From an uncultured Ruminococcus sp. (GTDB lineage Bacteria > Bacillota > Clostridia > Oscillospirales > Ruminococcaceae): 64,000 bases of DNA. Numbering within the stretch: position 1 is the stretch's first letter; every line of letters begins with the position of its first letter. Location of the stretch: NCBI GenBank assembly GCA_946413815.1, contig CAMKMD010000011.1:1-64000 (forward strand). Reading direction: 5' to 3'. Shown here in pieces: positions 23,012-40,058 of this stretch. Made by a program: the position numbers and the translations under genes. The notes beneath the pieces were generated by a model. The model saw only the letters and a program-made list of their open reading frames with translations, ran no database searches and was not told where the DNA came from.

Positions 23012-23266
23012 ATGAATAATACTTCTAATTCTCTGCCGGCTTTTACAGGCAGAAACGTACCGATCAAGGAGATCGCACAGGCAACAGGCAAAGACCCGCA
23101 GTACATCAGAATCGGCTTACAGAAAGGGATATTCCGTTTCGGATATGCTTTCAAAAAAGAAGGTTCAAGCGAATACAACTATCTTTGCCCTGACAAGAAA
23201 GTATGGGAGGACTTAGGCTATTTCAGGGCAGAAACGGAGGTCAGCGATGCAGGAAATGATGATTGA
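23012..23266 (+). CDS. Excisionase-like small DNA-binding protein
   Basis: 84 residues. The central segment NVPIKEIAQATGKDPQYIRIGLQKGIFRFG is a MerR/excisionase-type winged HTH; the C terminus is acidic. In elements of this class such a protein directs excision or activates early genes. Good GGAG site upstream. Its 3' end overlaps the primase gene by 20 bases. Confidence 0.7.
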   Translation: MNNTSNSLPAFTGRNVPIKEIAQATGKDPQYIRIGLQKGIFRFGYAFKKEGSSEYNYLCPDKKVWEDLGYFRAETEVSDAGNDD

Positions 23267-24923
23267 TACTGCGGAGCTGATTATGGAAGTCAACAACGGG
23301 GATAATCTCCCCGTTGTACTTAATGAGGAGGTACAGCCCGAAGAACAGGAGAAATCCGAGCTTGATAAATTAAAAGAAGAACTGTCGGCAGTAACGTATG
23401 ATGATATACTTAACAGTACTGCACCCTATGAAAAGATACTCACCCTGCCTGATGAATTTGCCGTGTCGCAGTATATCACGGCATTCAGACAGATAGCCAA
23501 GAAATTCAAGCTGACAGCGGACTTTGACAGCCTTGTAGCTCCATATAGGGAAAAGGCACTACGGCAGCTTAAAGAAGCAGAGCATCAGGAAAAGAAAGAG
23601 GAGAAAAGCAAATATCCTAAGTGGTGGGACGGCTCTCAGGTCAACGAGGACGTATTCTGCACAGAGCTATTATCACAGCACACACTGTACTGTATCAACG
23701 GACTGTTTTACGATATAGACGGCGAGTTCCTTATCTCGGAGCTGAGCAAGGTCATATATGAGCGTATCAAGCCTTATGTCATAAAGAATGTGGCAGATCG
23801 CACCAAGCGTCTGGTTGAAGCCATGAAGATAAAGTGCTACCGTCCTGCACCTGAGCCAAACGAACACACTATACACTTGAAGAACGGCACACTGCATCTG
23901 GCACAGGGACACTTTGTATTCTCTCAGGGAAAGCAGTTTACTATGAACCGCCTGGACATTGAATACCGTTCCGATGCAGCGAAGCCTGAACGCTGGCTCA
24001 GATTCGTGCAGGAGCTATTGAATGAACAGGACGTTATGACCTTGCAGGAGTATATGGGGTATCTGCTGATACCGTCCACAAGAGCACAGAAAATGCTGAT
24101 GATCTCAGGCAACGGTGGCGAGGGAAAGTCCCGTGTCGGCAAGGTGCTTTTTGAGATCATGGGATATAAGAATTCTGTAAGCGGAAGTGTATCAGGTCTG
24201 GACAACGGACCTGCCGCCCGATTCAACAAGGTCAAGCTCCTCGGAAAGCTCTGCATGATAGATGATGATATGGATATGTCCGCACTTGAAAAGACAGAGT
24301 TTCTTAAACAGCTTATCACAGCGGAGATACCTATGGAGATCGAGCCGAAAGGCAGTCCTTCTTTTCAGGCGTTATTGTACACAAGAGTAATCGCATTCGG
24401 CAACAATCCGATCTCTGCACTTTATGATCGCAGTGAAGGCTTCTTCCGCAGGCAGATGATACTTGTTGCAAAGCCTGTTCCGAAAGACCGTACAGCAGAC
24501 AAACATCTGACCGAAAAACTGCTTGCTGAAAAGGAAGGAATATTCCTCTGGTGTATTGAAGGATTGGAGCGGTTGATAGCGAATGATTTTGAGTTTACCA
24601 TAAGCGATCAGGCGAAAGAAAACCTCAAACGCAGCGAGCGTGAGTGCAACAATATCATTCCCTTTATGGAGAGTGAGCATGACTTCAAGTTTGACGCTTC
24701 GGGGCAGATACATTCTCAGGAATTATACTGGGCATATCAGAGCTGGTGCAGGCTCAATAATCTTGATGAACTTTCAAGGCGAACCTTCTCCGGCTATCTG
24801 AAATCTCATGCAGATGATTACGGTATTACTTACTCCGAAAACGCTGTCAATGAACAGGGTAAACGTGCGAGAGGTTTCATCGGGATCAGATACACATACC
24901 GACCGCCGACTATCATGTATTAA
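23247..24923 (+). CDS. P4-type phage/plasmid primase-helicase (SF3 ATPase)
   Basis: 558 residues. After a ~200-residue N-terminal region comes a D5_N-like domain, then the SF3 Walker A GNGGEGKSRVG (about residue 290), Walker B-like KLCMIDDDMD, and motif C-like VIAFGNNPIS with the arginine-rich GFFRRQM. A winged-helix DNA-binding end (ELYWAYQSWCRLNNLDELSRR) follows. Such proteins open and unwind the replication origin of satellites and mobilisable elements after excision. The ATG at 23247 sits 7 bases behind GGAGG. No full catalytic primase motif was seen, so it may act chiefly as helicase. Confidence 0.85.
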   Translation: MQEMMIDTAELIMEVNNGDNLPVVLNEEVQPEEQEKSELDKLKEELSAVTYDDILNSTAPYEKILTLPDEFAVSQYITAFRQIAKKFKLTADFDSLVAPYREKALRQLKEAEHQEKKEEKSKYPKWWDGSQVNEDVFCTELLSQHTLYCINGLFYDIDGEFLISELSKVIYERIKPYVIKNVADRTKRLVEAMKIKCYRPAPEPNEHTIHLKNGTLHLAQGHFVFSQGKQFTMNRLDIEYRSDAAKPERWLRFVQELLNEQDVMTLQEYMGYLLIPSTRAQKMLMISGNGGEGKSRVGKVLFEIMGYKNSVSGSVSGLDNGPAARFNKVKLLGKLCMIDDDMDMSALEKTEFLKQLITAEIPMEIEPKGSPSFQALLYTRVIAFGNNPISALYDRSEGFFRRQMILVAKPVPKDRTADKHLTEKLLAEKEGIFLWCIEGLERLIANDFEFTISDQAKENLKRSERECNNIIPFMESEHDFKFDASGQIHSQELYWAYQSWCRLNNLDELSRRTFSGYLKSHADDYGITYSENAVNEQGKRARGFIGIRYTYRPPTIMY

Positions 24924-26292: not shown

Positions 26293-26847
26293 ATGGATAA
26301 CGGTGCAAGTAGCTACCGCCGTTTCCTTTCCGGAGATAAAGAGGGGCTTGCTGAGATAGTGCGTGAATACAGCGACGGCCTGATTCTTTATATAAACAGC
26401 TTTGTCCAGAATATCTGTATTTCAGAGGAACTCATGGAGGATGTCTTCGTTGAGATAGCCCTCAGAAAACCGCAGTATTCAGGCCGGAGCTCGTTCAAGA
26501 CCTGGCTCTATGCCATTGCAAGGTATACTGCACTGGACTGCCTGAAACGGTATTCCCGCTTCTCTGACAGGCAGATAGACGAGATGTACGACCTGAGGGA
26601 CGAGTTCGACCTTGAGAAAAGCTATATAAGGGATGAACAGAGGATAACTCTGCATCGGGCTATGTCAAGGCTGAACAAGGATTACAGTCAGGTGCTGTAT
26701 CTGGTTTACTTTGAATCATTCAGCTATTCTGAAGCCGGAAAGATAATGAAAAAGACGGAACGGCAGGTCAAGAACCTGGTCTACAGAGCAAAAAAGGCTC
26801 TGAGAGAGGAACTCAGGAAGGAAGGGTTTGAATATGAAGAGCTATGA
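26293..26847 (+). CDS. ECF-type sigma-70 family sigma factor
   Basis: 184 residues. Region 2 is visible as ISEELMEDVFVEIALRK...GRSSFKTWLYAIARYTALDCLKR and region 4 as LNKDYSQVLYLVYFESFSYSEAGKIMKKTERQVKNLVYRAKKALREEL. It redirects RNA polymerase to a small regulon, probably including the following genes. AGGAGA precedes the ATG. Its end overlaps the anti-sigma gene by 14 bases. Confidence 0.9.
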   Translation: MDNGASSYRRFLSGDKEGLAEIVREYSDGLILYINSFVQNICISEELMEDVFVEIALRKPQYSGRSSFKTWLYAIARYTALDCLKRYSRFSDRQIDEMYDLRDEFDLEKSYIRDEQRITLHRAMSRLNKDYSQVLYLVYFESFSYSEAGKIMKKTERQVKNLVYRAKKALREELRKEGFEYEEL

Positions 26848-27520
26848 TGAAAGGATAGAAAGCATATTCCGCAAGTATGACGAACGGATTGGTGAGAAGA
26901 AACGCAGGAGAACCATAGCAGTACGCAGTGCGGTATCAGCGGCCGCCTGTGCAGTCCTTATTCTCGCCCTGAATCAGGTATCGCTTCTGGCTTACGGCGA
27001 GAATATGTTCAGCCGCATCTATCATTTTACCGGCAGGGGCGTTGCTATACATCTTGAAGAGGAGAGCCGGAACAACACTCTCCCCACAGGCTCTTCCGTC
27101 ATCACAGGCGAGGATATAAAGCTGCCCTCAGCCGAGGGAGACCCCTACGGCATCAGGAAGAAGTGTGCGGAATACGGTCTGCATCCCCTGACTCCCTTCT
27201 ACATACCCGAGGGGTTCAGGCTGGTAGAGATAGAGACCGAGAACGATATAAAGATAAACGCCATAAGGTTCGCTTTCAAGCGTGGGGATGAGATGATAGA
27301 CCTTGAATACGGTCAGTACAAGACGGATGAAATGGTCTTTGAGATACCTGCTGATTCAAAAACCATCACTGAAAGGGAGATATGCGGCCGGATGTTTGCG
27401 GTTATCCATGAGGAGGATACCGTAAAGGCCTTCTGTGCCGATGACAGGATGCTGTACGGCATCTTCACAACCGGCCTTGACAGTAAGGAAGCAGACAGGA
27501 TAATCGATTCACTAAGATAA
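26834..27520 (+). CDS. Membrane anti-sigma factor with DUF4367-like extracellular domain
   Basis: 228 residues. A cytoplasmic N terminus (KSYDERIESIFRKYDERIGEKKRRR) leads to one membrane helix (VRSAVSAAACAVLILALNQV) and an extracytoplasmic C-terminal domain (ITEREICGRMFAVIHEEDTVKAFCADD), the layout of DUF4367 anti-sigma factors. It should hold the upstream sigma factor at the membrane until a surface signal arrives. The ATG at 26834 has AGGAAGG 8 bases upstream; a TTG at 26828 is less likely. Confidence 0.78.
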   Translation: MKSYDERIESIFRKYDERIGEKKRRRTIAVRSAVSAAACAVLILALNQVSLLAYGENMFSRIYHFTGRGVAIHLEEESRNNTLPTGSSVITGEDIKLPSAEGDPYGIRKKCAEYGLHPLTPFYIPEGFRLVEIETENDIKINAIRFAFKRGDEMIDLEYGQYKTDEMVFEIPADSKTITEREICGRMFAVIHEEDTVKAFCADDRMLYGIFTTGLDSKEADRIIDSLR

Positions 27521-27545
27521 GCTATTTCGTCAGGAGGTAATCAAC

Positions 27546-28610
27546 ATGAAGACAGCAAACAGGCTCATAGCAGCCATTATCGGAGCAGTCACAGCAGTCA
27601 GCACATTCACACCGGCAGTCTCAGCATACACAGACGGAGTACACGATACAGACGATATGATAGAATCAGATATCCACTTTTATCTGTGGTCAGAATATGC
27701 CCCTGATTACACAGGTTACAGGATATATTACAGCGAAGAAGAGGACGCATTCTATGGTATGGCAGACAGCAGCGATATGGAGATAGTATACGTACCGGCA
27801 GACGGTGTGACAGTTGATGATATAGCTGCTGCCTTCGAAGAATACAAGAAGAACAATCTTCCGGATGAAGAGGAATCAGTGACTTCCTACGGCGAAAAGG
27901 AGATCGTGAAAAAACTCGGTATCAATGAAGAGGGAGGCGTGATATCCACAAGGATAGAGACCATGGTTCCGGTGCGTCTTATAGCAAAATTCTGCCAGAA
28001 AAATGCAGAGCTTTTCAAAGCTGTTGAATACAGGAACAGAATATGGTACCTGCTTTCGATCAGCGAGCCCTTCAAAATACCGGATTACGATACAAGGTCA
28101 GCCGGAGAATACTTCAAAGAGCACGGCCTTGACTGGGATTGTAGTAACTGTTCTATCAAACTGAGCAACATCGGCGGCAAGGGGTATAACTACATCGACG
28201 GCATAACGATAGATTTTCCTGAGGATATGACGGTATATGAACGGGCTGAAGCTGCTTTCTCAATGCTGGATGGCAAGAAAACGAATATTCTTTATCCTGT
28301 GATTACAGCAGGCAGCAAATGCTCATGGGAGAGCACCGATATGCTGAAGATATCGACAGAAGCAATCAGAATACCGCCGACAGAACAACCCACCTTCGGA
28401 TGGGAACTGTATTCTACCGTTAAAGGCGATGCAAACAACGATTTCAAGGTAAATATCGCAGATGCGGTGACAGTTCTCCAGTACATAGCCAACAACAAGA
28501 AATATCCGATGTCCGAGCAGTCAAAGATCAATGCGGACTGTGACGGAGTCCCCGGTATCACAGGTGGCGATGCTATCATGATACAGAAGATGGATGCGGG
28601 GATAGTGTAA
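27546..28610 (+). CDS. Secreted dockerin-containing protein, paralogue 1
   Basis: 354 residues. A signal peptide (MKTANRLIAAIIGAVTAVST, cleavage near VSA-YTD) is followed by a ~260-residue domain of unknown function. A C-terminal type I dockerin covers about 292-352, with Ca loops DANNDFKVNIAD and DCDGVPGITGGD. The dockerin should dock it to a cellulosomal cohesin scaffold. The module lacks glycoside-hydrolase motifs. Gene order (sigma, anti-sigma, two dockerin proteins) suggests control by the upstream sigma factor. The N-terminal domain is shared with the next gene. Confidence 0.83.
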   Translation: MKTANRLIAAIIGAVTAVSTFTPAVSAYTDGVHDTDDMIESDIHFYLWSEYAPDYTGYRIYYSEEEDAFYGMADSSDMEIVYVPADGVTVDDIAAAFEEYKKNNLPDEEESVTSYGEKEIVKKLGINEEGGVISTRIETMVPVRLIAKFCQKNAELFKAVEYRNRIWYLLSISEPFKIPDYDTRSAGEYFKEHGLDWDCSNCSIKLSNIGGKGYNYIDGITIDFPEDMTVYERAEAAFSMLDGKKTNILYPVITAGSKCSWESTDMLKISTEAIRIPPTEQPTFGWELYSTVKGDANNDFKVNIADAVTVLQYIANNKKYPMSEQSKINADCDGVPGITGGDAIMIQKMDAGIV

Positions 28611-28644
28611 GGTTATTAAGAGAATTTATAAAGGAGGAAAAACT

Positions 28645-30219
28645 ATGAAAAAGGCGAACAAAATAATTGCGGCTGCACTATCCGCAGTCATTGCTGCCTG
28701 TGCAGTAGCATCAACTGCATCCGCATACACAAACGGTATACATGATACAGACAGCATGAGGGCTGTCATTGATTATTCTTTCGATGTAAGCGAACCATAT
28801 CTCTCTGATGTTTCTGCGAGGGAACTCTACTATGATGAAGCAGATGATTCCTTCTATATTATTACAGAAGGAAGGATCGATGAAGCAGTATTCACTCCGG
28901 CAGAGGGTGTTGTCTTTGAGGATATCGCGGCTGCGTTTGAGCAGTACAAGGAGAAAGAACTGCCGGATGAAGAGGAAGATCCACAGCTGCATGAGAAGGA
29001 ATACCTGAGCAAGCTCGTCATTCAGAAAGACGGCGAGAAAGTATATGCAGAGATACCTGTAGAGGTTTCAATACGCCTTCTTGCAAGCTTCTGTCAGAAG
29101 AATGCCGCACTCTTTGAGAGTGCAGAATACAAAAAAGACAGGATGTATATGCTGACTATCGGTGAGCCATACTGCATAACACGGTATAATACCAAAACCG
29201 CGGATGAATACATCATGGAGCATGAACTCGACTGGAGCTGTAAGTCAGCGTCAGTTCGTGTTTATGAAGGAAAAGGATTTAAGAACGTAGATGGAATATC
29301 ACTGACATTTCCCGAAAACATGACCGGGTACGAGAAGGCACAGGGAGCATACGAAATGATGACGGCAAAAAACGGCAGCGCACTGTACCCGACGATAACG
29401 GATACTTGTGAATGTACATGGGAAAGTACAGATCTCCTCGTCATGTCAACGGCTGTGAACAATACGCTCATTCCAACAGTGGCACCGACGATAACAGAGA
29501 CACCTACACAGGAGAAAACTATGGTTCCGACCTCTCCTATAGATTCAACAGGTGTCGGCGATGCAAACTGCGATTTCCGTGTAACTGTTGCTGACGCCGT
29601 AGCTGTGCTCCAGTACATAGCCAACGCAGAAAAATACCCTCTCAGCCCTCAGGGAAAGGTAAACGCCGATATCGACGGTATTCCGGGCATAACCGGTACT
29701 GACGCCATTGCTATACAGTGTATTGATGCGGGGGTTGAGTACGTTCCCAAGGCTCAGAAAAAGCGCACCTATTCCACAAAGGAAGAGCTTATCAGCCTTA
29801 TGGTGTCAGAGGACGAAGATTTCTCTGAACATGGCTTTATCTATGCACCCGGATACAAATTCGATGCAGTTCTTAATGCCGGCACTAAAGATTACCTCAT
29901 CATATACGGGCTGGATCCTGAGGACTGTAAGCTGAACGAGTATCGCTGGGGATATATGCCTGAGAACATTGTGATAAATACAGCTGATTTCATTTATGCG
30001 CTCGAGCCTGAATTCTACAGCGGTTCAACTTATATGCCGGGAGCGCTGAAGGAAGAATACAGGATAACCAGCGAAAGTGGAAATTCACTTGAGGTTATCT
30101 TCTTCATTGACGAGACTGCACCTGGATTCATGTATGAAATGACCGATGAAAGATGGACAGCCTCCTATGGATTCAGCTATATGCCCTATGTATTCCCGGA
30201 TGGAACTGAAATCAAATGA
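28645..30219 (+). CDS. Secreted dockerin-containing protein, paralogue 2, with extra C-terminal domain
   Basis: 524 residues. A signal peptide (MKKANKIIAAALSAVIAACA..., near ASA-YTN) precedes an N-terminal domain paralogous to the previous protein. Shared landmarks are HDTD, DIAAAFEQYK, IRLLASFCQKNAALFESAEY and CTWESTDLL. A Thr/Pro linker (about 275-302) leads to a dockerin at about 303-368 (DANCDFRVTVAD; DIDGIPGITGTD). Unusually, the dockerin is internal, with about 150 residues after it that may form a separate domain (YSTKEELISLMVSEDEDF...). The product is probably co-expressed with the preceding gene, 34 bases upstream. Confidence 0.83.
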   Translation: MKKANKIIAAALSAVIAACAVASTASAYTNGIHDTDSMRAVIDYSFDVSEPYLSDVSARELYYDEADDSFYIITEGRIDEAVFTPAEGVVFEDIAAAFEQYKEKELPDEEEDPQLHEKEYLSKLVIQKDGEKVYAEIPVEVSIRLLASFCQKNAALFESAEYKKDRMYMLTIGEPYCITRYNTKTADEYIMEHELDWSCKSASVRVYEGKGFKNVDGISLTFPENMTGYEKAQGAYEMMTAKNGSALYPTITDTCECTWESTDLLVMSTAVNNTLIPTVAPTITETPTQEKTMVPTSPIDSTGVGDANCDFRVTVADAVAVLQYIANAEKYPLSPQGKVNADIDGIPGITGTDAIAIQCIDAGVEYVPKAQKKRTYSTKEELISLMVSEDEDFSEHGFIYAPGYKFDAVLNAGTKDYLIIYGLDPEDCKLNEYRWGYMPENIVINTADFIYALEPEFYSGSTYMPGALKEEYRITSESGNSLEVIFFIDETAPGFMYEMTDERWTASYGFSYMPYVFPDGTEIK

Positions 30220-30773: not shown

Positions 30774-30916
30774 ATTCAGGAAATCAAGGCATCCATCATT
30801 TGGTGGATGCCTTATTTGTACAGCAAGGAGGGAACTTATTAAATGTCCCCTAAACACCATTTAAATGAGTATATTACAAAATAACCGCTGAGAGAACGCT
30901 CCCTCAGCGGTTATTT
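30774..30916 (+). other. Right flank resembling the left end of the element
   Basis: Contains hairpin AAGGCATCCA/TGGATGCCTT with TTATTTGT (30786-30819), an AAGGAGG followed by a 13-codon reading frame (30843-30884, MSPKHHLNEYITK), and terminator TAACCGCTGAG/CTCAGCGGTTA (30882-30913). The same succession (hairpin, gene, terminator) occurs just inside attL with the 360-aa cyclase gene in the middle. Confidence 0.6.
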
Positions 30917-32887
30917 TTATTTCTCCGGTTTCTCTGACTTCCTATACCTCGCCATAATGGACATAAGGTCGTATTTGCACATCTCCGGTCTTGTCTCCAT
31001 GAGCTTATCCTGCGTCACGATGCAGGGATTGCGCCGGAACCTGTCATTCTTCCTGTCCCCGTATCTCCAGCCGATGGAGGCCATATAGCAGCACCAGCGG
31101 CGGTGCTCGAGAGAGGCGAGGCCGTATGCGAAGCTGTCCTTCTTCATCGCTTCAAGCAGTTCCTCCTCCGAACCTCTCATGCGCCATGCTGAGCCGGTAT
31201 ACTGCATTATCTTTCCGTCCGTACCGATAAGCTCCTCCAGCTTTGCGGAGAAGTCCGCACCGCTCTCTGCTGCCAACTTCGGGAGGATGTCATCCTTTAC
31301 CTTGTCGTGGTATGCGGCGGCCTTGCTGGATGAGCGGCGGAAGAGCCTTAATCTGTTCCATTCCTGCTCAGGGTCCTTGTCTGAGTTGTCTGCTGCACCC
31401 TCCTCATCGGCTGTGAGGAGGGATATATTCTCGTAGATATGGTTGTACTCCTTGGCGCTCTGGTCTATCCTGCGGTCGATTATCATATCAAGAGTGATGA
31501 CCACGCTTCTGTCATCGATAAGGTCTACGTCGTCAAGGACGTCATTATCCGCAGTGATATAGCCTGCAAGCCTTCTGTCGGTATCCATGCGCATGAGTAT
31601 AGGGGATTTTATCTCACGCTCCGCAAAAAGCTCCTCCAGCTGCACTGCGCAGTTTACTGCAAGGTCGATGTTGCTGAGGGCTATGACCGCATAAGTGTAT
31701 GGGTCTGTTTCAAGCTTGCTTCGCACCATATCATAGAAGTTCATATGCGAGATATTGAGCTCGAAGAAGTTTATCTCCAGGAGACCGTCCACCGCACTGC
31801 TCTTCATGACTGCCTTGTTATCCGTGATATCAAAGGTCTCGGGGCTGAACTGATTGAGGAAGACCGCTTTCTTTGCCTTGATGCTGCTGTCAATGACATC
31901 TATGACGATGCGGTTCTCCTTATGTACTACGCCCAGGTTCATGGCCTGAATGACCGCCTCCTGACCAAGCTGTCCGAAGCCGGCAACAAGGAGATGCACC
32001 GTCCAGTCCTTCAGAGGAGTATCTGTGTCCTTGTATACCGTATGCAGGGGGTGGTCGGCATACATCTTGTGTATCTGCATCTCGGGAAGTCCCATGAGTT
32101 CAAGGTCGAAGAAGGCATCCGTACCGGCAGCGCCGTTGTAGTAGCCGGCAATAAGCCTGCCTATGCCCTCGTCCTCACAGCGGCAGGAGACCTTTGCGCC
32201 CTCTGCAAGCCGTATCCTCTCTTCTGAGTCCTTCTCGTTGAGGCGGAAGAGCTGGAGGAGGGAAAAATTGCGTATGGTGGAATTCTCATAGAGAATTATA
32301 TTCGTGGCATCTGTGATATGTGTCTTTTCAAGCAGGTTTTCAAGCTCCCGCTCGGGCGCTTTCAGCACATCGACGGTATGTATCACATAGCCCGACTTGT
32401 TAAGGCCGTAGACCTCCTCCTGTGCTATGGGCTCTGCCGTTACGATATGCACGCATATCTTCTTCGGGTCGGAGGTGTCGTTCCTGAGCATGGAGCGGAC
32501 ATCGCTGTTGTAGCCGAATACCACCACATGGCGGCAGTTCTTGTTACGGCGGAAGAAGATGATGAAGCGCAGTATCCTCTCGAGGAATTTGTATATAAAG
32601 GAGAGGGTGCAGTAGGGAGCCGTGAATACCGCTATGCAGTAGGCATAGGCAATGCCCTTGCTTATCACAGAGTTGTTGTCCTTTATGAAAGCAACTGTGT
32701 CCTTTATTGTGACCGAGGCCTTGAAGCCGAATGCGTTGATACTGTTCTGGAGAACGAGCAGCAGCTTGAAGAAGGGCTCGTAGCTCTGGTAGTAGTTTAT
32801 TCCGTGCGCAGTCGCTATGAGGAAGGAAAGGACGGCAAGCAGGAATATCAGCCGGGTGGTATTGGAACGGCTGTCTTTATGTTTCAT
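30917..32887 (-). CDS. Membrane protein with two Rossmann (TrkA-N/RCK-like) domains and C-terminal RyR domain
   Basis: 656 residues. Two N-terminal membrane helices (LIFLLAVLSFLIATAHGI and about residues 75-115) are not separated by any K-channel selectivity filter. Then come two Rossmann-type domains, HVVVFGYNSDVRSML near 120 and VHLLVAGFGQLGQEAVIQAM near 295, the second followed by an acidic strand end (IDVIDSS). The C terminus (about 580-645) fits the RyR domain: LEHRRWCCYMASIGWRYGD, then NPCIVTQDKL. It probably senses a nucleotide ligand at the membrane. It follows the TIR gene by 13 bases with its own GGAGGG, so both form one operon. Confidence 0.75.
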   Translation of the reverse strand: MKHKDSRSNTTRLIFLLAVLSFLIATAHGINYYQSYEPFFKLLLVLQNSINAFGFKASVTIKDTVAFIKDNNSVISKGIAYAYCIAVFTAPYCTLSFIYKFLERILRFIIFFRRNKNCRHVVVFGYNSDVRSMLRNDTSDPKKICVHIVTAEPIAQEEVYGLNKSGYVIHTVDVLKAPERELENLLEKTHITDATNIILYENSTIRNFSLLQLFRLNEKDSEERIRLAEGAKVSCRCEDEGIGRLIAGYYNGAAGTDAFFDLELMGLPEMQIHKMYADHPLHTVYKDTDTPLKDWTVHLLVAGFGQLGQEAVIQAMNLGVVHKENRIVIDVIDSSIKAKKAVFLNQFSPETFDITDNKAVMKSSAVDGLLEINFFELNISHMNFYDMVRSKLETDPYTYAVIALSNIDLAVNCAVQLEELFAEREIKSPILMRMDTDRRLAGYITADNDVLDDVDLIDDRSVVITLDMIIDRRIDQSAKEYNHIYENISLLTADEEGAADNSDKDPEQEWNRLRLFRRSSSKAAAYHDKVKDDILPKLAAESGADFSAKLEELIGTDGKIMQYTGSAWRMRGSEEELLEAMKKDSFAYGLASLEHRRWCCYMASIGWRYGDRKNDRFRRNPCIVTQDKLMETRPEMCKYDLMSIMARYRKSEKPEK

Positions 32888-32900
32888 CTGCTCCCTCCTT

Positions 32901-35900
32901 TCAGCCTTCGCCGAGCGCCTTCAGGTATTCCCTGGCGGTGCTGAGAAGCTGCTCTGTGGTATATACCGGGAAGAAGCCCGCAAGGCTGCGCATATCGTCG
33001 CTGATGAACACTATATCCTTTCCTGCGGGGGCGGCTGAGAAATCATCTATCCTGTAGCGGACAGCAAAGTTCTCCGTATCGAGGAGCCATGCCTTGTCAT
33101 CGTCCCATACTACATAGATATATCCGTCGCCTGCATAAGGGCTTGTTTCAAGCCGCGCGGCATTTGTGCTGTCACAGCCGTAGATGCTGTTCTCTTCGCC
33201 GTTTCCGAATTCAAGGCGGCAGCTCCTGCCGGTCATTCCGCCGGCATTCATCTCGTAGATACATGAATCGCGGCAGAGCACTGCGAAGGTATCATCTGTA
33301 ACGGGAGCGACTGATACGGGCTCCTGTCCCACGCCAGTTATCTGGATATCTGCCTTCTGAGCACCTGTTGCAGCATCAAAGAGGGCAACCGTCCTGTTGG
33401 CAAAGAACACTCCTACGGTGTCGCTGTTCTGCCAGAAGATATGCCTTACCGCAAGGCCTTTGTCAGACTCGAGGTCGCAGTCAAGGGTCACGCTCTGGCC
33501 TGTCGTGAAGGAGTATACATCGATATGAAATGCGTCCTCCTCTCCGAAATACGCATAGATCGCCGCCCTGTCTCCGCATACGGCAAAACAGCCGTCTGTT
33601 ATCTCGTTCTCTGCCACCAGGGAGCCTTCCTTCGGCTTTGCCCAGACGCTGCAAGTGCCGTCAGCTGTGATACAGGCAAGATTGCGTTCAGCATCATTGA
33701 TGTAGTATACTCCCTCACCGGAAGGAACAAGCTTCAGATCGCTCCTTCTTGCAGAAGGTGCATCCTCTGACTGCTTCACGCTAAGATCAGAGGTATTTAT
33801 CACATATATCCTGTCCTCTGAATCATAGCTTATCCCGTCCGGAGCATTGGCATTTACAACAAGGCAGCTGCTGCCTATGAATGCCGCACTGTTGACACGG
33901 TAGCCTTCAAGTCCGGCGATCTCGGTAAGCTTGCTGTCTTTGGTGCTGTACAGGAAGAAATGCGGTGTGACGTGTGTATCGCCGTCATACTCGTCATCAG
34001 GGAAGAAGGACGAGGAAACTGCCGCAAAGGAGCCGTCCTCCGATGCAGCGAGAACATTGTCTGAGTACATATGCTCACCGGTACCGATTCTTGTGAACAT
34101 CTGGTTTTCGCCGCCGTACTGGATGTAAGCGGTATTGGAGTATTCCCCGGCGGTGGCATATTTTCCGCGGCTGTAGCTGCACATGGATACCGCTGTATCT
34201 ATTGTCTGTACAAGGTATGCCGCATTGTTGGCGGGATCTCCGGTGACATAGCCTCCGAGGGCTATCAGGTATTCCTCGCCGCTGTCGCCTGTGAACATCA
34301 CAAGGCCGGTGCGGGTAAAGGAGGCATCGACTACTTCGCAGTCAAGGGCTATGGTGCTTATCTCCTCTCCCGTCTCATAATCCACAAAGGCCAGATGACG
34401 GTTAGTCAGCACAGCAAGCACATCATGCTCGTATCCGGTATCTGCTGCCGGCATAAGGAATACCCTTCCATTGTTCTGATAGTTCAGCTTGAGCTCTGTG
34501 CTCCACTTCTTCTCCTTCAGCCCGCTGTCATAGCGGTACAGCGTGGTCACAAGGTCAAAGGCGCATACATCACCGCAGATGATAAGGGGCTCGTCGCCTG
34601 TGAACTGCATATCCACTTTGCGGATAGCACCCGGTACGCCTGCCGGCACAGCTACCTTCTCTGCCTCAGTGCAGGCATGATCCTTTACCTCAAAGGTCCT
34701 TATCTCTTCGCTGTCGGAGCTGTAAAGCCAGAGCTTTCCGTCCCTGAAGCTGAAGATGTCGATATCAACGAGGAACCCGAAGCTGACATCGGAGAGGCCT
34801 GAAACATCCACTGTGTCGGTAATTGCGCCGTTCTCACGGTCGATGATATCAAGGAAATAGCCGTTGCCCGGTATCTCGGTGCCGCCGGGCATTACTGTCT
34901 TGTTGCGCCACAGACGGAATACATACTTCTCATCGGTGATGATCTTGATGCATTCAATGGCATCCTCCGAGAGCGGAGAGCTCCAGAGGATATCGCCTGT
35001 CGCTCCGTCTATCCTCCATACCGTGCTGTCAGAGTTGTAGATATATACATCTCCGCCTGTGCCGGGCTCTTCTTCGTCAACGTCATGGACATAGTCCGTA
35101 TAGATCTTGTTGTATGCAGGGCTGTTTGAATATGCCATACTGCCGGGGGAGCCTGTATGGTCAAAATAGGTGCCTGTCTTGTCGGGGCTGATATCGAATA
35201 TGGCAGTCAGCTTGTTAGCGCTGCCCTTCCTGCCGGAGGCGAACTCGCTGTCCTCCGCGGATATCTTCTTTTTCAGGGCGCCTGTCTCCGCATCCCAGAA
35301 GTATACTCCGGATGCGTCCTGTGATACCACGGACTTTCCGCCGCCCATGAAGGAGATCTGTTCCACGGAGTATTCGTGTTTAAGAGCAAGGCGGGGCATG
35401 AACTGCTGAGCCTGGAACATACTGAGCTCCCTCGAAAGGGCGTACTCGGCCTCGGGTATGACGGGCTTTTCATCCTGTGCGGGAAGCGCCTCGACTGCCT
35501 TCTGTATCGCAGGGATAAGTCTGTTCTCACTGAACAGGTTCTCCGACTCCACAGCAAGGTGTCCGGCATTCTCCACAAGGAGGTCATTGTTCTTCTTTTC
35601 AATCTGCTCGTTCTGGGCTATGATCTGTGAGTTCTGCTCCTTGATCTGGTCATTCTGCTCCTGTATGCGGACGTTCTTTCCGTTGATCGTGACAGCAGAT
35701 GCGATGCTTATAACGGAGATAAGGGAGAGTACTCCCGATACTCCGCCGAATATCCTTCTTCTGCGTGCGGCCTCACGGCGCTTCTCACGCTGGAAGAGAT
35801 CGTTGAAATCGCAGCCGAGAAGCGGTGCGGCGATGCGGAGATACTCCGTATCCAGCTTCTTCATGGACTCCCTGAGGGTATCGGCTGTGATATTGGCGGC

Positions 35901-36338
35901 AAGGGGCTCTACGTCCATCCTTACCTTTACCTCATTGCCGTTCTCGTCAGTGGTGGTGACCTCGGTGTAGGTCAGCTCCTCCGGAAAGGCCTCCTGTGGC
36001 AGGCCGTTCACGAGAAGGGTTATTATGTTCTCGTTGGTATTGCCGTGAAGTTCACGGAAGCGGGTGAGCTCCTGCTTGCACCACTTGGATTCGTTGTACT
36101 TCGGCGAGCATATAACGATAAGGAACTCCGAAGTCTCAACGGCATTCCTTATCTCTTCGCTGAGGTCGCTGCTTGACTGGAGCTCTGATACATCACGGAA
36201 GATGCGCCAGTTCTCCTTTTTCTTGCCGAGCTCCTTCGGCGGCCTGTAGGCCTCCAGGAGCTTCTGCAGTCTCTCTGCGGCCTGCATATCTGGTTCAAGG
36301 TGGCGGTAGCTTATAAAAGCCTTGTATTTGTATTCCAT
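32901..36338 (-). CDS. Membrane-anchored TIR-domain protein with large beta-propeller-like C-terminal region
   Basis: 1145 residues. An N-terminal TIR domain (about 1-115) starts KYKAFISYRHLEP and includes RIFRDVSELQSSSDLS and SEFLIVICSP, ending in SKWCKQELTRF. Glu90 is where NAD-cleaving TIRs have their catalytic Glu. One membrane helix (206-226) comes after RREAARRRR, so the TIR should be cytoplasmic and the rest outside. A Gln/Asn/Ile-rich coiled coil (about 229-270) precedes ~870 residues of WD40/PQQ-like repeats (FWDAETGALK, WRIDGATGDILW, ALFDAATGAQ). The start at 36338 was chosen for AAGGAGAG upstream. First gene of the TIR/RyR operon. Function is unproven; a signalling or defence role is inference. 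Confidence 0.82.
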   Translation of the reverse strand: MEYKYKAFISYRHLEPDMQAAERLQKLLEAYRPPKELGKKKENWRIFRDVSELQSSSDLSEEIRNAVETSEFLIVICSPKYNESKWCKQELTRFRELHGNTNENIITLLVNGLPQEAFPEELTYTEVTTTDENGNEVKVRMDVEPLAANITADTLRESMKKLDTEYLRIAAPLLGCDFNDLFQREKRREAARRRRIFGGVSGVLSLISVISIASAVTINGKNVRIQEQNDQIKEQNSQIIAQNEQIEKKNNDLLVENAGHLAVESENLFSENRLIPAIQKAVEALPAQDEKPVIPEAEYALSRELSMFQAQQFMPRLALKHEYSVEQISFMGGGKSVVSQDASGVYFWDAETGALKKKISAEDSEFASGRKGSANKLTAIFDISPDKTGTYFDHTGSPGSMAYSNSPAYNKIYTDYVHDVDEEEPGTGGDVYIYNSDSTVWRIDGATGDILWSSPLSEDAIECIKIITDEKYVFRLWRNKTVMPGGTEIPGNGYFLDIIDRENGAITDTVDVSGLSDVSFGFLVDIDIFSFRDGKLWLYSSDSEEIRTFEVKDHACTEAEKVAVPAGVPGAIRKVDMQFTGDEPLIICGDVCAFDLVTTLYRYDSGLKEKKWSTELKLNYQNNGRVFLMPAADTGYEHDVLAVLTNRHLAFVDYETGEEISTIALDCEVVDASFTRTGLVMFTGDSGEEYLIALGGYVTGDPANNAAYLVQTIDTAVSMCSYSRGKYATAGEYSNTAYIQYGGENQMFTRIGTGEHMYSDNVLAASEDGSFAAVSSSFFPDDEYDGDTHVTPHFFLYSTKDSKLTEIAGLEGYRVNSAAFIGSSCLVVNANAPDGISYDSEDRIYVINTSDLSVKQSEDAPSARRSDLKLVPSGEGVYYINDAERNLACITADGTCSVWAKPKEGSLVAENEITDGCFAVCGDRAAIYAYFGEEDAFHIDVYSFTTGQSVTLDCDLESDKGLAVRHIFWQNSDTVGVFFANRTVALFDAATGAQKADIQITGVGQEPVSVAPVTDDTFAVLCRDSCIYEMNAGGMTGRSCRLEFGNGEENSIYGCDSTNAARLETSPYAGDGYIYVVWDDDKAWLLDTENFAVRYRIDDFSAAPAGKDIVFISDDMRSLAGFFPVYTTEQLLSTAREYLKALGEG

Positions 36339-36376: not shown

Positions 36377-36405
36377 ATTTTACCATACTTCCGGAAGAAA
36401 TGCAA
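36377..36405 (-). promoter_or_regulatory. Promoter of the TIR/RyR operon
   Basis: Minus strand TTGCAT (36400-36405), 17-base spacer, TAAAAT (36377-36382), about 40 bases before the start at 36338. Confidence 0.6.
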
Positions 36406-36429: not shown

Positions 36430-36610
36430 CGATGCCCACATCGCCCGCCCCTTTGTCCATATCCGCATCTGCACCGCGGGCTTCAGAAAGACCGGCGGAC
36501 CGCCGGAGGCGGTCCCTACAGCCGCTGCGTTCATGGCGGCGCACATTGTACGCCCTTGCACTTCAGATCCATCGCCGCAGGGCGATGCCGGTAATTCTGA
36601 ATTCTGAATT
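36430..36610 (-). repeat. Dispersed intergenic repeat family 2, copy E
   Basis: Contains GGGCGATG/CATCGCCC (36434-36455). Inverted relative to 18389-18490 are GGACCGCC-GGA-GGCGGTCC (about 36498-36516), GCGCACATTGTACGCCC and CATCGCCGCAGGGCGATG, ending in AATTCTGAATTCTGAATTAA. No gene. Confidence 0.6.
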
Positions 36611-36618
36611 AAAAGAAA

Positions 36619-36816
36619 GAGCCCACCCGCAGGTGAGCTCCCAGTCTGTCAATAAACCTTACATTCACAAATAAGCGGGGCGATGTAGGCATCGCCCCCT
36701 ACATTTTGCTATGGAGGAATCGGCGTTTGTAGGGGCGGATGCCCACATCCGCCCGCTTGACTTCTGCCATAACTGACTTTTTTGACAAGCTGAGAGCCCA
36801 CCCGCAGGTGAGCTCC
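36619..36816 (+). repeat. 23-bp direct repeat flanking copy B of family 1
   Basis: A hairpin sequence beginning GAGCCCACC and ending GGTGAGCTCC is present at 36619-36641 and again, base for base, at 36794-36816. Between the two lies the whole of repeat copy B. The second copy sits 10 bases after the stop of the 36827 gene, where a terminator would be expected. Confidence 0.7.
36648..36786. repeat. Dispersed intergenic repeat family 1, copy B
   Basis: 139 bp bounded by GTCAATAAA and TTTTTTGAC. Inside are GGGGCGATG/CATCGCCCC, ACATTTTGCTATGG, AATCGGCGTTTG and GGGCGGATG/CATCCGCCC, nearly identical to copy A at 10874-11014. Confidence 0.8.
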
Positions 36817-36826
36817 TGTATGTTTT

Positions 36827-39328
36827 TTAATTCAACTGTTCCGTCAGAGTATCGATAACTGTAACGCCGTCAGCATCATAAACGTTTATCGTCTTCGGCA
36901 CATAGGTGCCGTTTTTAATTGCATCCATTTTGGCCATTGCCTCTGTCGGATTGGTGACGCCGTCATCAAGAAGCTCGCTCTCGTAGACATAGCCTTCCTT
37001 TCCGTTGTCGCCTGTGACCTTCAGCATCTTTGCCTGTCCCTTATCCGTTGTGACCGGAAGAGTCACAGCTTTCTCCCCCGTCGTCCCGGGGATATCGTAA
37101 TAGGGAAGATCGGCGAAGTTATTTCCATCCATTATAATGAAGGGGACGTGATATTCCTGAGAGCTGTCAGTGCCGGAATCTCCGCGCTCTGATACAGCCA
37201 TGACCAGTCTGTAGCTGCCCGCGGGAAGCTTTCCGTATTTCCATGACCATACGATATCAAATACTAACTGATCGTTCACCGGGATATCATACATATCGTC
37301 AGGGAAGATATACTTAACTATATCCGGCATGGGCTCCCAGCCGTCTGCTGTCCTGCGTTCTATTCTGTATTTTCCGCCCTTCTGCTGTAAAACTGCATCA
37401 GGGGCTGCATCACTGCGCTTTATGGTCAGTCTTGCGCTTCCGGATGTCACACGGGAGAGCTCCATGGAGATGCCCCATTTGTCGTCCTTCTCTTCGCTGC
37501 AGTAAAGCCTGTCGGGGGCTGAGGGCTTCTCTCCGGGAGAAGTGGTGTAAGGTACGTTCTCCGTATCTCCATCCCCGTTGACTGTGAACTGTGCATATAC
37601 CTCGCTTTCGTCAAAGCCCCCGGGGGCTCTGTAGTACATTATCTTCTTGCCGAGCCGGTATGTGCCTGCGGGAAGCTCGCCGTAGATCCAGTCCCAGCTG
37701 ATGTCGGTCTCTTTCCGCTTACCAAGATCAAGATTGTAGGCGACTGAATTGAACACAGCATTCTCTCCCGCTTCAAGGGGCTCCCATCCGTTTTCTGTCA
37801 GGGCTTCTATGACAAAATCATCGCCGCACTGCAATCTGCCTCCCGCTGCAGAGCCGCTGACGTTTATTGTAAGCGTTCCGCCCTTCGGGGTAACATTGGT
37901 CATAGTCATCTCTGCTCCCCACTCCTCGTCATCTGATGGTGTTTCGGCGGGAAGTCCGAGGAGCTCTCTCAGGCCGTTCATATCGAAGAAGTTGAAGGAC
38001 TTTGCGCCGGAGTCGCTGTCAACCACGCGCTGAATATAGGTATTGTCGCACTTGTAGAGCATACCGTACTCAAAGCCCGTGCTGCTCAGGCCGCCTGAGG
38101 TATCGTCTGCAACGAAGAATGCGTATTCCTTGCCTATGAAGGGTACCTCTCCGCTCTCGACTATCACGTGATAGCACTGGCTGTCTATCTCCTCGTCCGT
38201 CATGGCAATATTACTGCGGCCATACTCCTCTATCTGTCCTTCCAGCATATCACGCATGGAGACATAGCCGCCGGCTGTTGCGATATCAACTGTATCGCCT
38301 GCGGAGTATCTTCCGGCGGTATCGCCTGTGACAGTCACTGTGATGATGGTATCCGGCGTGCTGATGAAACCGGATCTCTGTACCCTATAGGATATCTTCT
38401 CTACCTTTCCGGTTATAAGGTCATCGCAGTTTTCAGCTATCTGGTCTATGTTCCTTATATCAAAGTCATAGCAATAGACCGGATAGTTCTCTATTACCTC
38501 TGTTCCCGCAAGCTCCTCCGGTACAGGGGCTTCCTCGAATATGTCCTCTGGTACGGCCTCGTTGTTCTTCCATACGCCGTCGGGGGTCAGGTCTTCCATC
38601 TTGCACCATATCAGATGCCCCTGCAATGCGTCAGCAGGATCGGTGGGATGGGCAAGGCTGCGAACAAGGGAGTATGCCTCCTCTGATACGCTGTATCTTG
38701 CGGAAATACCATCCTTTTCATATATGGCCGTATTGTCGGGATGGAATTCAAGTCTGAACCTCTGCCCGCCGTTATTAACATACAGGAAGGTACTCTCGCC
38801 GTCGGAACGGGGTGTATCGGCAGGAAGCTCCTCCCATGTGCTGCTGTTGAATACATCTGCCAGCATCGCTGCGGTGCCTGCATCGAAGGTATCGTACACG
38901 TAGGGCACATAGGCCGGAGTCAGGAAGCGCACTCTGCCGCCTGAGATATCCCCGAAGGGCGCGGCTGAAACGATTTCTTCGATAGCAAGGGCTGTTGTCG
39001 TATCGGTGGCTGCCGTCGGGTCGATATCCGAACCGCCGCCGAGGCTTTTTAGCATGAGCGCGCCCCCCGTGCAGGCTCCCGCAATAAGCACGAATGAAGC
39101 GGCAACGGCAAGAGCGCTGCGCCATACAGGCCTGCGGTAGGTCTCTACTCCCGTAACGACAGTGCCGGTGTCCTCACTGCCGGATTCACGGCCTATGCGC
39201 TTCTCGCACTTCTCAAACAGCCTGTCCCTGTCCTTTTCAGACACCGGTGAGACAAGCTCCGAAAGTCTTTTTATAGTCTCCTCATCGGCGTTTTCAAGCG
39301 CCCTGAGATCAATATCATCTTTTTTCAT
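36827..39328 (-). CDS. Large membrane anti-sigma-like protein with Ig-like repeats
   Basis: 833 residues. A cytoplasmic N terminus (MKKDDIDLRALENADEETIK) fits a sigma-binding segment. One membrane helix lies near 71-96 (SALAVAASFVLIAGACTGGA). A long extracytoplasmic region follows, including two ~115-residue repeats (about 470-590 and 620-735) that end in YGELPAGTYRLGK and YGKLPAGSYRLVM, the hallmark of a bacterial Ig-like domain seen in Firmicute envelope proteins. It starts 12 bases after the sigma factor gene ends. The large ectodomain suggests the signal is bound directly at the cell surface. Confidence 0.72.
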   Translation of the reverse strand: MKKDDIDLRALENADEETIKRLSELVSPVSEKDRDRLFEKCEKRIGRESGSEDTGTVVTGVETYRRPVWRSALAVAASFVLIAGACTGGALMLKSLGGGSDIDPTAATDTTTALAIEEIVSAAPFGDISGGRVRFLTPAYVPYVYDTFDAGTAAMLADVFNSSTWEELPADTPRSDGESTFLYVNNGGQRFRLEFHPDNTAIYEKDGISARYSVSEEAYSLVRSLAHPTDPADALQGHLIWCKMEDLTPDGVWKNNEAVPEDIFEEAPVPEELAGTEVIENYPVYCYDFDIRNIDQIAENCDDLITGKVEKISYRVQRSGFISTPDTIITVTVTGDTAGRYSAGDTVDIATAGGYVSMRDMLEGQIEEYGRSNIAMTDEEIDSQCYHVIVESGEVPFIGKEYAFFVADDTSGGLSSTGFEYGMLYKCDNTYIQRVVDSDSGAKSFNFFDMNGLRELLGLPAETPSDDEEWGAEMTMTNVTPKGGTLTINVSGSAAGGRLQCGDDFVIEALTENGWEPLEAGENAVFNSVAYNLDLGKRKETDISWDWIYGELPAGTYRLGKKIMYYRAPGGFDESEVYAQFTVNGDGDTENVPYTTSPGEKPSAPDRLYCSEEKDDKWGISMELSRVTSGSARLTIKRSDAAPDAVLQQKGGKYRIERRTADGWEPMPDIVKYIFPDDMYDIPVNDQLVFDIVWSWKYGKLPAGSYRLVMAVSERGDSGTDSSQEYHVPFIIMDGNNFADLPYYDIPGTTGEKAVTLPVTTDKGQAKMLKVTGDNGKEGYVYESELLDDGVTNPTEAMAKMDAIKNGTYVPKTINVYDADGVTVIDTLTEQLN

Positions 39329-39340
39329 GGATAGCCCTCC

Positions 39341-39904
39341 TTACAGCGATATACCGGCTTTTTCCAGTATACCCCTCAGTTTCTTCAAAGCTCTTCCGCT
39401 CCGCACACGGACATTCTCCGGAGTAAGAGACACCGCCCCGGCAATATCCTTTGCAGACCGGCCGTAATAGTATTTCATAAGGATGATGGTGGAATCAGGC
39501 TCGCCCAGCGATTCGATGCTGTCAAGTATGATACGCCTGAGCTCCTTGCCCTCCACCTCTTTCACAGTGTCGGCAGCAGGATCACTGACGCTGAAGGCTT
39601 CATCATCGAGCGGCACAGTCTCCGCAGAGGAGGTCAGTCTCCTGTATCGTGCAGATGCCATACGCCTTGCAAGCACGCCTATGAATCCGGAGATATCTCC
39701 CTCAGATGCCTTGCCGCTGTCGTAGCAGCGGTAGAACTCCGCAAACACATCACAGACACACTCTTCCGTATCCTCGCGTCTCCCGCAGCTTCGCAGCCTG
39801 TTGAAGACTATAGTATATACATAGTTGAAATACTCATCGAATACCGCTCTGTGCGCCTCTTCTGAAGAGTTCCGTTTTTTCCGCCTGTATTCTTCATTCG
39901 TCAT
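39341..39904 (-). CDS. ECF-type sigma-70 family sigma factor (second)
   Basis: 187 residues. Region 2 (FDEYFNYVYTIVFNRLRSCG, then FAEFYRCYDSG) and region 4 (LGEPDSTIILMKYYYGRSAKDIAGAVSLTPENVRVRSGRALKKLRG) are clear. The ATG at 39904 has AGGCGG 8 bases upstream; a GTG at 39913 is possible. It pairs with the anti-sigma-like gene downstream. The stretch 39905-40058 contains no other gene. Confidence 0.88.
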   Translation of the reverse strand: MTNEEYRRKKRNSSEEAHRAVFDEYFNYVYTIVFNRLRSCGRREDTEECVCDVFAEFYRCYDSGKASEGDISGFIGVLARRMASARYRRLTSSAETVPLDDEAFSVSDPAADTVKEVEGKELRRIILDSIESLGEPDSTIILMKYYYGRSAKDIAGAVSLTPENVRVRSGRALKKLRGILEKAGISL

Positions 39905-40058
39905 TTTCCTCACCGCCTTTGTTTAAGATGCTATCCGGTACAGCTCCTGTTATATCTATTGTGACAGAGAAGCTGAAACGTAACACATTTTCAGAAAAAA
40001 TACCATCTGATGTCATTATACCATAATGCGGTGCGGGAGGCAATCACTGCCGCAGCAC

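Follow-up and report, generated by a model that had tools for sequence, protein, structure and literature searches.

Can a bacterial TIR enzyme signal to a channel-like membrane protein through a domain related to part of the ryanodine receptor? The question is raised by two neighbouring genes found in the window, the whole stretch of 64,000 nucleotides that was analysed (contig CAMKMD010000011.1 of an uncultured Ruminococcus sp.). The first gene encodes a TIR protein, built from a TIR domain, one membrane helix, a coiled-coil-like stretch and a large beta-propeller-like region; the second encodes a channel-like protein, in which a two-helix membrane domain is followed by RCK (Rossmann) domains in tandem and, at the C-terminus, by a RyR domain. 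A sequence-only reading had suggested that the two form a pair of NAD-derived signal and receptor. Here we establish directly which parts the two proteins have, that these are conserved and that the pairing of the two genes is fixed within the genus, and we discuss the mechanism to which this points.

The TIR gene and the channel gene are a conserved pair

The genus set comprised 125 genomes, 68 of them with a completeness of 90% or more and a contamination of 5% or less. The channel is present in 28 of the 125 genomes (18 of the 68 high-quality ones), and all 28 encode a TIR domain within 3.1 kb of it. In 26 of these pairs the TIR-propeller gene lies upstream on the same strand, and the other two have a convergent, smaller TIR gene of a different type. 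As a baseline, some TIR_2 match is found in 88/125 genus genomes, with one to six per genome; in the genome of the window the single TIR_2 match is the TIR gene of this pair. An adjacency of 28 out of 28 in 125 genomes means that the pairing is not due to chance. Of 36 genus genomes sampled first, 10 carry the channel, and exactly these 10 carry the TIR-propeller; a single weak TIR match was found elsewhere. In a collection of named genomes, which overlaps with the genus set, 43 channel loci were found. A TIR gene neighbours 37 of them, that is 37 of the 41 with readable flanks, two loci at contig ends (L064, L065) being left out of this count and three (L026, L055, L063) being counted as paired on re-inspection, where the choice of open reading frame (ORF) had missed the gene or a shadow frame intervened. 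The four loci without an adjacent TIR gene are L048, L054, L057 and L061. The nearest named relative of the channel, 86% identical, comes from a Ruminococcus sp. (L024).

The pair extends well beyond the genus. In Fusobacterium vincentii a TIR-WD40 gene is followed by a channel gene 3 bp away, the two products being 22% and 19% identical to those of the window, and the single TIR_2 match of that record is the TIR of the pair. The same gene order is also seen in Johnsonella (L066) and in a Clostridia genome (L127). The pair is thus found in two phyla, Bacillota and Fusobacteriota. The sequence-only reading had named rare adjacency in related genomes as the result that would speak against it, and adjacency proved not to be rare. 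The type of TIR partner beside the channel varies, from propeller to WD40, MORN-like (L056) and DUF4268. Two loci (L059, L060) have a TIR gene on each side of one channel, and in L014/L029 and L036 the TIR-propeller gene is split across two frames, by decay or assembly error.

Within the window the two genes lie on the minus strand with a spacing of 13 bp, as had been read from the sequence (Table 1); the TIR ORF has an alternative, longer in-frame start at 36386. A strong hairpin stands directly 3' of the channel gene, which is consistent with one transcription unit; it is absent from the list of the promoter/terminator consensus scan. The single promoter claimed by the sequence-only reading found no support in that scan, which returned 6 promoter-like sites against 7.1 expected by chance and none in the minus-strand sequence that immediately precedes the TIR gene. 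Several GC-rich hairpins occur upstream of the operon (window 36490-36700), one of them terminator-like on both strands.

Table 1 Features of the gene pair, with window coordinates and the evidence for each
Feature	Coordinates	Strand	Evidence
TIR protein, 1145 amino acids (aa)	32901..36338	-	ORF; Pfam TIR_2 passes its cut-off, PQQ_2 falls just short of it; orthologues
TIR domain, aa 2-135	35934..36335	-	Pfam PF13676, E 8.9e-14, above cut-off
Predicted membrane helix, about aa 194-220	35679..35759	-	19-residue hydropathy maximum of 2.15
Beta-propeller-like region, about aa 300-1145, presumed sensor	32904..35441	-	PQQ_2, 25.1 bits against a cut-off of 27.6
Channel-like protein, 656 aa	30917..32887	-	ORF; AlphaFold2 model; GsuK match
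Membrane domain, aa 8-114	32546..32866	-	Model; hydropathy and alignment
RCK1, aa 119-275, degenerate dinucleotide motif (FGYN)	32063..32533	-	Alignment and model
RCK2, aa 297-475, intact GFGQLG (G303, G305, G308) and D333	31463..31999	-	Alignment
RyR domain, aa 585-650, with H595, W598 and D640	30938..31135	-	Profile matches and alignments
Terminator-like hairpin after the operon	30878..30917	-	Fold -27.5 kcal/mol, z -7.8; pattern 30883-30912

A TIR protein with a conserved glutamate

The TIR domain announced by the sequence-only reading is borne out by two Pfam families above cut-off, PF08937 in addition to that of Table 1. Its putative catalytic glutamate, E90 (SKWCKQE), is invariant in alignment A5 (24/24), and a glutamate occupies this position in 49 of 50 aligned TIR domains of these loci, the exception (L146) being a mis-cut sequence. 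A basic stretch, REKRREAARRRR, precedes the predicted membrane helix, and by the positive-inside rule, a common guide to membrane topology, the TIR domain would lie inside the cell and the propeller outside. WD40-type matches are found in the region equivalent to the propeller in the distant homologues L066, L127 and L170. Against PADLOC and NCBIfam the TIR protein gives weak matches only, the best being ThcB4 with 28.1 bits for a cut-off of 220.

A channel-like protein built on tandem RCK domains

The AlphaFold2 model of the 656-residue protein has a pLDDT of 86.2 and a predicted template modelling score (pTM) of 0.79, and GsuK, the dual-RCK potassium channel of Geobacter, is its best PDB match among the matches listed, the VIA alignments to GsuK beginning at residue 3 to 6. 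All 50 VIA matches listed are of RCK type with no RyR structure among them, and they are uninformative on the RyR part. In the model the membrane domain consists of a helix (3-32), a short helix at the pore-helix position (38-53) and a second long helix (74-114), so that two predicted membrane helices are followed by tandem RCK domains, which is the GsuK-type arrangement. The two Rossmann domains of the sequence-only reading are thereby recovered: the Pfam scan detected neither of them, but both are clear in the model. At E values up to 1, neither PADLOC nor NCBIfam gives a match to the channel-like protein.

The nucleotide motif of RCK2 is strongly conserved, with G303, G308 and D333 in 40/40 sequences of alignment A4 and G305 in 38/40. 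Parts of PMC3510474 report that RCK2 of GsuK binds NAD+ and ADP, which activate the channel. These observations would suit a sensor of NAD+ or ADP levels working through RCK2, in which the TIR domain merely drains NAD+ and so alters the gating with no special signal molecule. This explanation leaves no role for the RyR domain, which is better conserved than any other part of the channel over the 20 pairs compared below, and we consider it very unlikely.

The RyR tail keeps the ligand residues of a phage protein

The RyR domain scores 20.8 bits with PF02026 in the window protein, below the gathering cut-off of 27.4, but comparisons of profiles uphold this assignment of the sequence-only reading. 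A profile of 10 orthologues matches the ryanodine-receptor structures 6uhi (RyR1 chimera, E 4.5e-9) and 9l90 (RyR3, E 5.6e-5), as well as chains named putative ryanodine receptor (3nrt, 4n05), and hhalign against canonical RyR domains gives a probability of 96.5 (E 7.4e-10). By these sequence comparisons the tail is homologous to Repeat12 of the ryanodine receptor and to the phage protein RyDEP. The three RyDEP residues H75, W78 and D117 correspond to H595, W598 and D640; the first two align directly in the multiple alignment, and the match of D117 with D640 comes from the hhalign profile comparison. Among 40 channels H595 is kept in 39, W598 in 40 and D640 in 40. The position of RyDEP H100 is N620 here, and it is also variable (H or T) among 10 canonical RyR domains.

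According to portions of a 2026 preprint (PMC13232231), RyDEP (gp78 of Mycobacterium phage DyoEdafos) cleaves 2'/3'cADPR, a cyclic ADP-ribose (cADPR) signal, its H75, W78 and D117 hold or attack the ligand, and H75 and D117 form the catalytic dyad. The same source reports that of eight phage RyR homologues tested none cleaved 2'/3'cADPR signals and six bound them. Ligand binding is therefore a fair inference for the protein of the window, and cleavage is not. In RyR3 the homologous domain binds adenine nucleotides and closes on binding like a clamshell, as described in part of PMC12627627. The RyR domain might instead be an off-switch that hydrolyses or soaks up the TIR product and so ends or limits the signal, RCK2 reading NAD+ or the product. 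The conserved dyad would agree with this, and one phage RyR protein is indeed a glycosidase; the lack of cleavage by the eight homologues argues against it, as does the fusion of the domain to a channel-like gating ring, where RyDEP is free. Because the domain is joined to the gating ring, the modelled arrangement leads us to favour a receiver, and we judge an off-switch unlikely.

Divergence of the pair and its neighbourhoods

Mean identities over 20 Ruminococcus-group pairs differ strongly between parts of the two proteins. In the channel the RyR domain is the slowest part (0.82, against 0.68-0.73 for the rest). In the TIR protein it is the TIR domain (0.82) and the residues that directly follow it (0.87) that evolve slowest, and the two propeller halves (0.46 and 0.44) that evolve fastest. 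Slow TIR and RyR domains together with a fast propeller are expected if enzyme and receiver share a fixed signal while the sensor diversifies.

The divergence of the two proteins is congruent, with a Mantel r of 0.92 between channel and propeller and of 0.71 between channel and TIR, values that are confounded by shared ancestry. Along with the probable single transcription unit and the prediction of both products as membrane proteins, this congruence is what one would expect of a physical TIR-channel complex in the membrane, in which clustering of the TIR protein gates the channel directly and no messenger diffuses. The change of TIR partner from locus to locus, with the TIR glutamate kept nonetheless, is hard to reconcile with such a complex, and the shared ancestry takes away from the Mantel values; we regard the complex as highly improbable.

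When the flanks of 28 loci were compared, 15 had no flanking homologue in any other and 13 fell into five groups. This corresponds to 17 different neighbourhoods for 25 Ruminococcus-group pairs, an upper estimate since contigs are short; the 25 pairs are the 28 loci minus L025 and L029 (no flanks) and L048 (no TIR), with L047 and L050 outside the comparison. These numbers suggest that the pairs were kept together while moving.

Around the operon of the window, Pfam assigns the 12 flanking genes to sigma factors, a DUF4367 protein, weak dockerin matches, Big_14, PMT-type enzymes, MBOAT, a hydrolase and a D5-like protein, one gene having no match. The absence of any defence family from these 12 genes, and the channel relatives that stand alone with a recurring neighbour (L128-L135, described below), would fit a sensor of the cell's own stress or ion balance rather than of phage, a role compatible with the first four steps of the mechanism proposed below. 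Patchy presence, many neighbourhoods and a fast-evolving presumed sensor are more defence-like, so that we find a stress sensor somewhat unlikely. A role in defence is moderately favoured, from the patchy presence together with the divergence of the sensor.

A defence island was sought in the window with negative outcome in the Pfam scan of the flanking genes, the PADLOC search covering the pair and one neighbour. Both flanks of the operon (26293-30219; 36827-39913) contain sigma-factor genes that neighbour a weak dockerin match or a Big_14 protein. A DUF5906/D5-like gene lies at 23247-24923, about 6 kb from the operon; genes of this kind are often found on mobile elements. A phage home for the channel was not supported, no relative being found in phage records, and 11 stretches from viral contigs matched the search pattern with none confirmed. 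A plasmid home fared no better: the plasmid set gave one match, a 2.1 Mb record of F. vincentii (L170, NZ_CP084075.1), labelled plasmid but chromosome-sized.

Proposed mechanism

We think it fairly probable that the pair is a two-gene signalling unit, which combines the TIR-signal logic of Thoeris with an ion-channel-like receiver. The propeller, probably outside the cell, would detect a disturbance, perhaps caused by phage, and the cytoplasmic TIR domains would cluster. The TIR domain, in which the catalytic residue is seen, would then use NAD+ to make a derivative of ADP-ribose, an isomer of cADPR being the most likely product. This signal would bind the RyR domain of the partner, where the ligand residues are seen, perhaps together with NAD+ or ADP in RCK2. 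Closure of the RyR clamshell could move the RCK gating ring of the predicted fold, so that the two-helix membrane domain opens or closes and ion flow changes. Finally, and this is the least certain step, the lost ion balance might halt phage multiplication. NADase activity, signal, its binding, gating and anti-phage role are thus what we infer from the conserved parts.

A number of observations weigh against this scheme. No ion filter can be recognised in the membrane domain, as the sequence-only reading had said of the potassium filter: the T-x-G-Y/F-G signature (TVGYG-type) is absent and the site reads QNSINAFGFKA, of which NAFGF is found in this clade and is unconserved in the distant relatives aligned; a potassium selectivity filter was likewise sought and not found by hydropathy and alignment of the membrane domain. 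The VIA fit to GsuK is loose, with a root mean square deviation of 7.7 over 401 residues. One multiple alignment placed RyDEP D117 elsewhere than D640, and the phage homologues that bind without cleaving are to be counted here as well. No defence family flanks the operon. Two of the genomes with an unpaired channel (L048, L057) contain no TIR_2 match whatever, and in L164 and L168 the TIR-propeller occurs without an adjacent channel. Of the 391 Clostridia genomes in the class sample, 34 gave a match; of the 33 other matching genomes 32 were examined (G367 left out), and only 7 of these 32 have a Pfam TIR gene no more than two genes away, four beside a channel-type gene (L127, L136, L137, L143) and three beside other RyR genes (L146, L148, L154). 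One Clostridia family, with nine matching genomes (L128-L135, L138, L159), has no TIR neighbour on the stretches examined, and in the regions of L145 and L156 the profiles found no RyR or channel ORF. A link between RyR domains and TIR signals already has a precedent in the phage RyR proteins of PMC13232231.

The proposal of a signal and its receptor is therefore retained in part. It gains from the conserved pairing, the GsuK-like unit with tandem RCK domains and the kept ligand residues of RyDEP, and its chemistry is more plausible because phage RyR proteins bind, and one cleaves, 2'/3'cADPR (PMC13232231, in part) and the residues involved are conserved here; its novelty is reduced by the precedent, and many RyR relatives have no TIR neighbour.

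Some of these relatives have other company. In L128-L135 the TIR-less channel relative stands mostly beside the same gene, radical-SAM-maturase-like by eye. In L164, a genome with no channel match, the TIR-propeller gene is followed by a gene that looks by eye like a DHH-type phosphoesterase. In L154 (1-4658) a TIR domain (TIR_2 E 1.4e-25) and leucine-rich repeats (nine LRR_4 stretches) belong to one protein and, by eye, are separated by a membrane helix, an arrangement that recalls an animal Toll-like receptor with its ends reversed; next to it are a small RyR gene and the gene of a larger RyR protein. In L023 (7567-15431), whose genome belongs to a different family of the order, a short TIR, a small RyR and two larger RyR-bearing proteins form a cluster, which also holds a protein of 1124 aa that is Clp-like by eye.

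Comparison with known systems

ThsA-type effectors are SIR2-SLOG, macro-transmembrane or caspase-like proteins, and the Thoeris type II effector is a membrane protein. Parts of PMC12948488 describe Thoeris as a TIR protein, ThsB, with an effector, ThsA, the type II effector binding an ADP-ribose derivative through its macrodomain. The pair resembles types I and II of that source in that a TIR gene with the catalytic glutamate adjoins one effector gene. It differs in its partner, a tandem-RCK membrane protein with RyR instead of SIR2-SLOG or macro domain, and in the membrane helix and propeller of its TIR protein. ThsA-type domains gave no Pfam, NCBIfam or PADLOC match in the partner, whose predicted fold is tandem RCK, and because this feature of the effector was sought and is absent, we do not class the pair as Thoeris. 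To our knowledge the partner is unlike any Thoeris effector. A newer Thoeris type could include the pair, type VI being mentioned in PMC13232231.

RyDEP and the sponge-type phage RyR proteins carry the same H, W and D residues in the RyR domain; RyDEP, however, is a phage protein, small and free, and removes the signal, whereas here the domain forms the C-terminal end of a channel-like protein that the host encodes beside a TIR gene. With GsuK the protein shares two membrane helices, tandem RCK domains and an intact nucleotide motif in RCK2, and it differs by its lack of the potassium filter signature, its RyR tail and its TIR partner gene. In the ryanodine receptor the homologous nucleotide-binding domain is a repeat in a giant calcium channel, whereas here a single C-terminal copy is borne by a small RCK protein. 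We know of no RyR domain and no TIR partner in the plant channels CASTOR/DMI1. The literature search gave no account of a TIR and RyR-channel pair among the matches listed, and the text searched of PMC7159879 and PMC8195603 makes no mention of RyR or TrkA.

Whether cADPR acts directly on ryanodine receptors, and via which domain, is a long-standing question. The RyDEP authors name the RyR domain for future study in the part of PMC13232231 considered here. The pair provides a small natural bacterial protein in which an RyR-homologous domain sits on a channel-type gating ring, beside the gene of a likely cADPR-type enzyme. We put forward tentatively, at a little less than even chances, that a cADPR-type messenger, produced by a transmembrane TIR receptor, acts on the RyR domain of an RCK channel and thereby opens this channel; this would be a bacterial cADPR-ryanodine-receptor axis and a TIR immunity with an ion-channel effector, present in at least Bacillota and Fusobacteriota. 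If this is true, TIR immunity would gain a channel effector, and the pair would offer a simple system for the nucleotide control of an RyR domain in a membrane protein.

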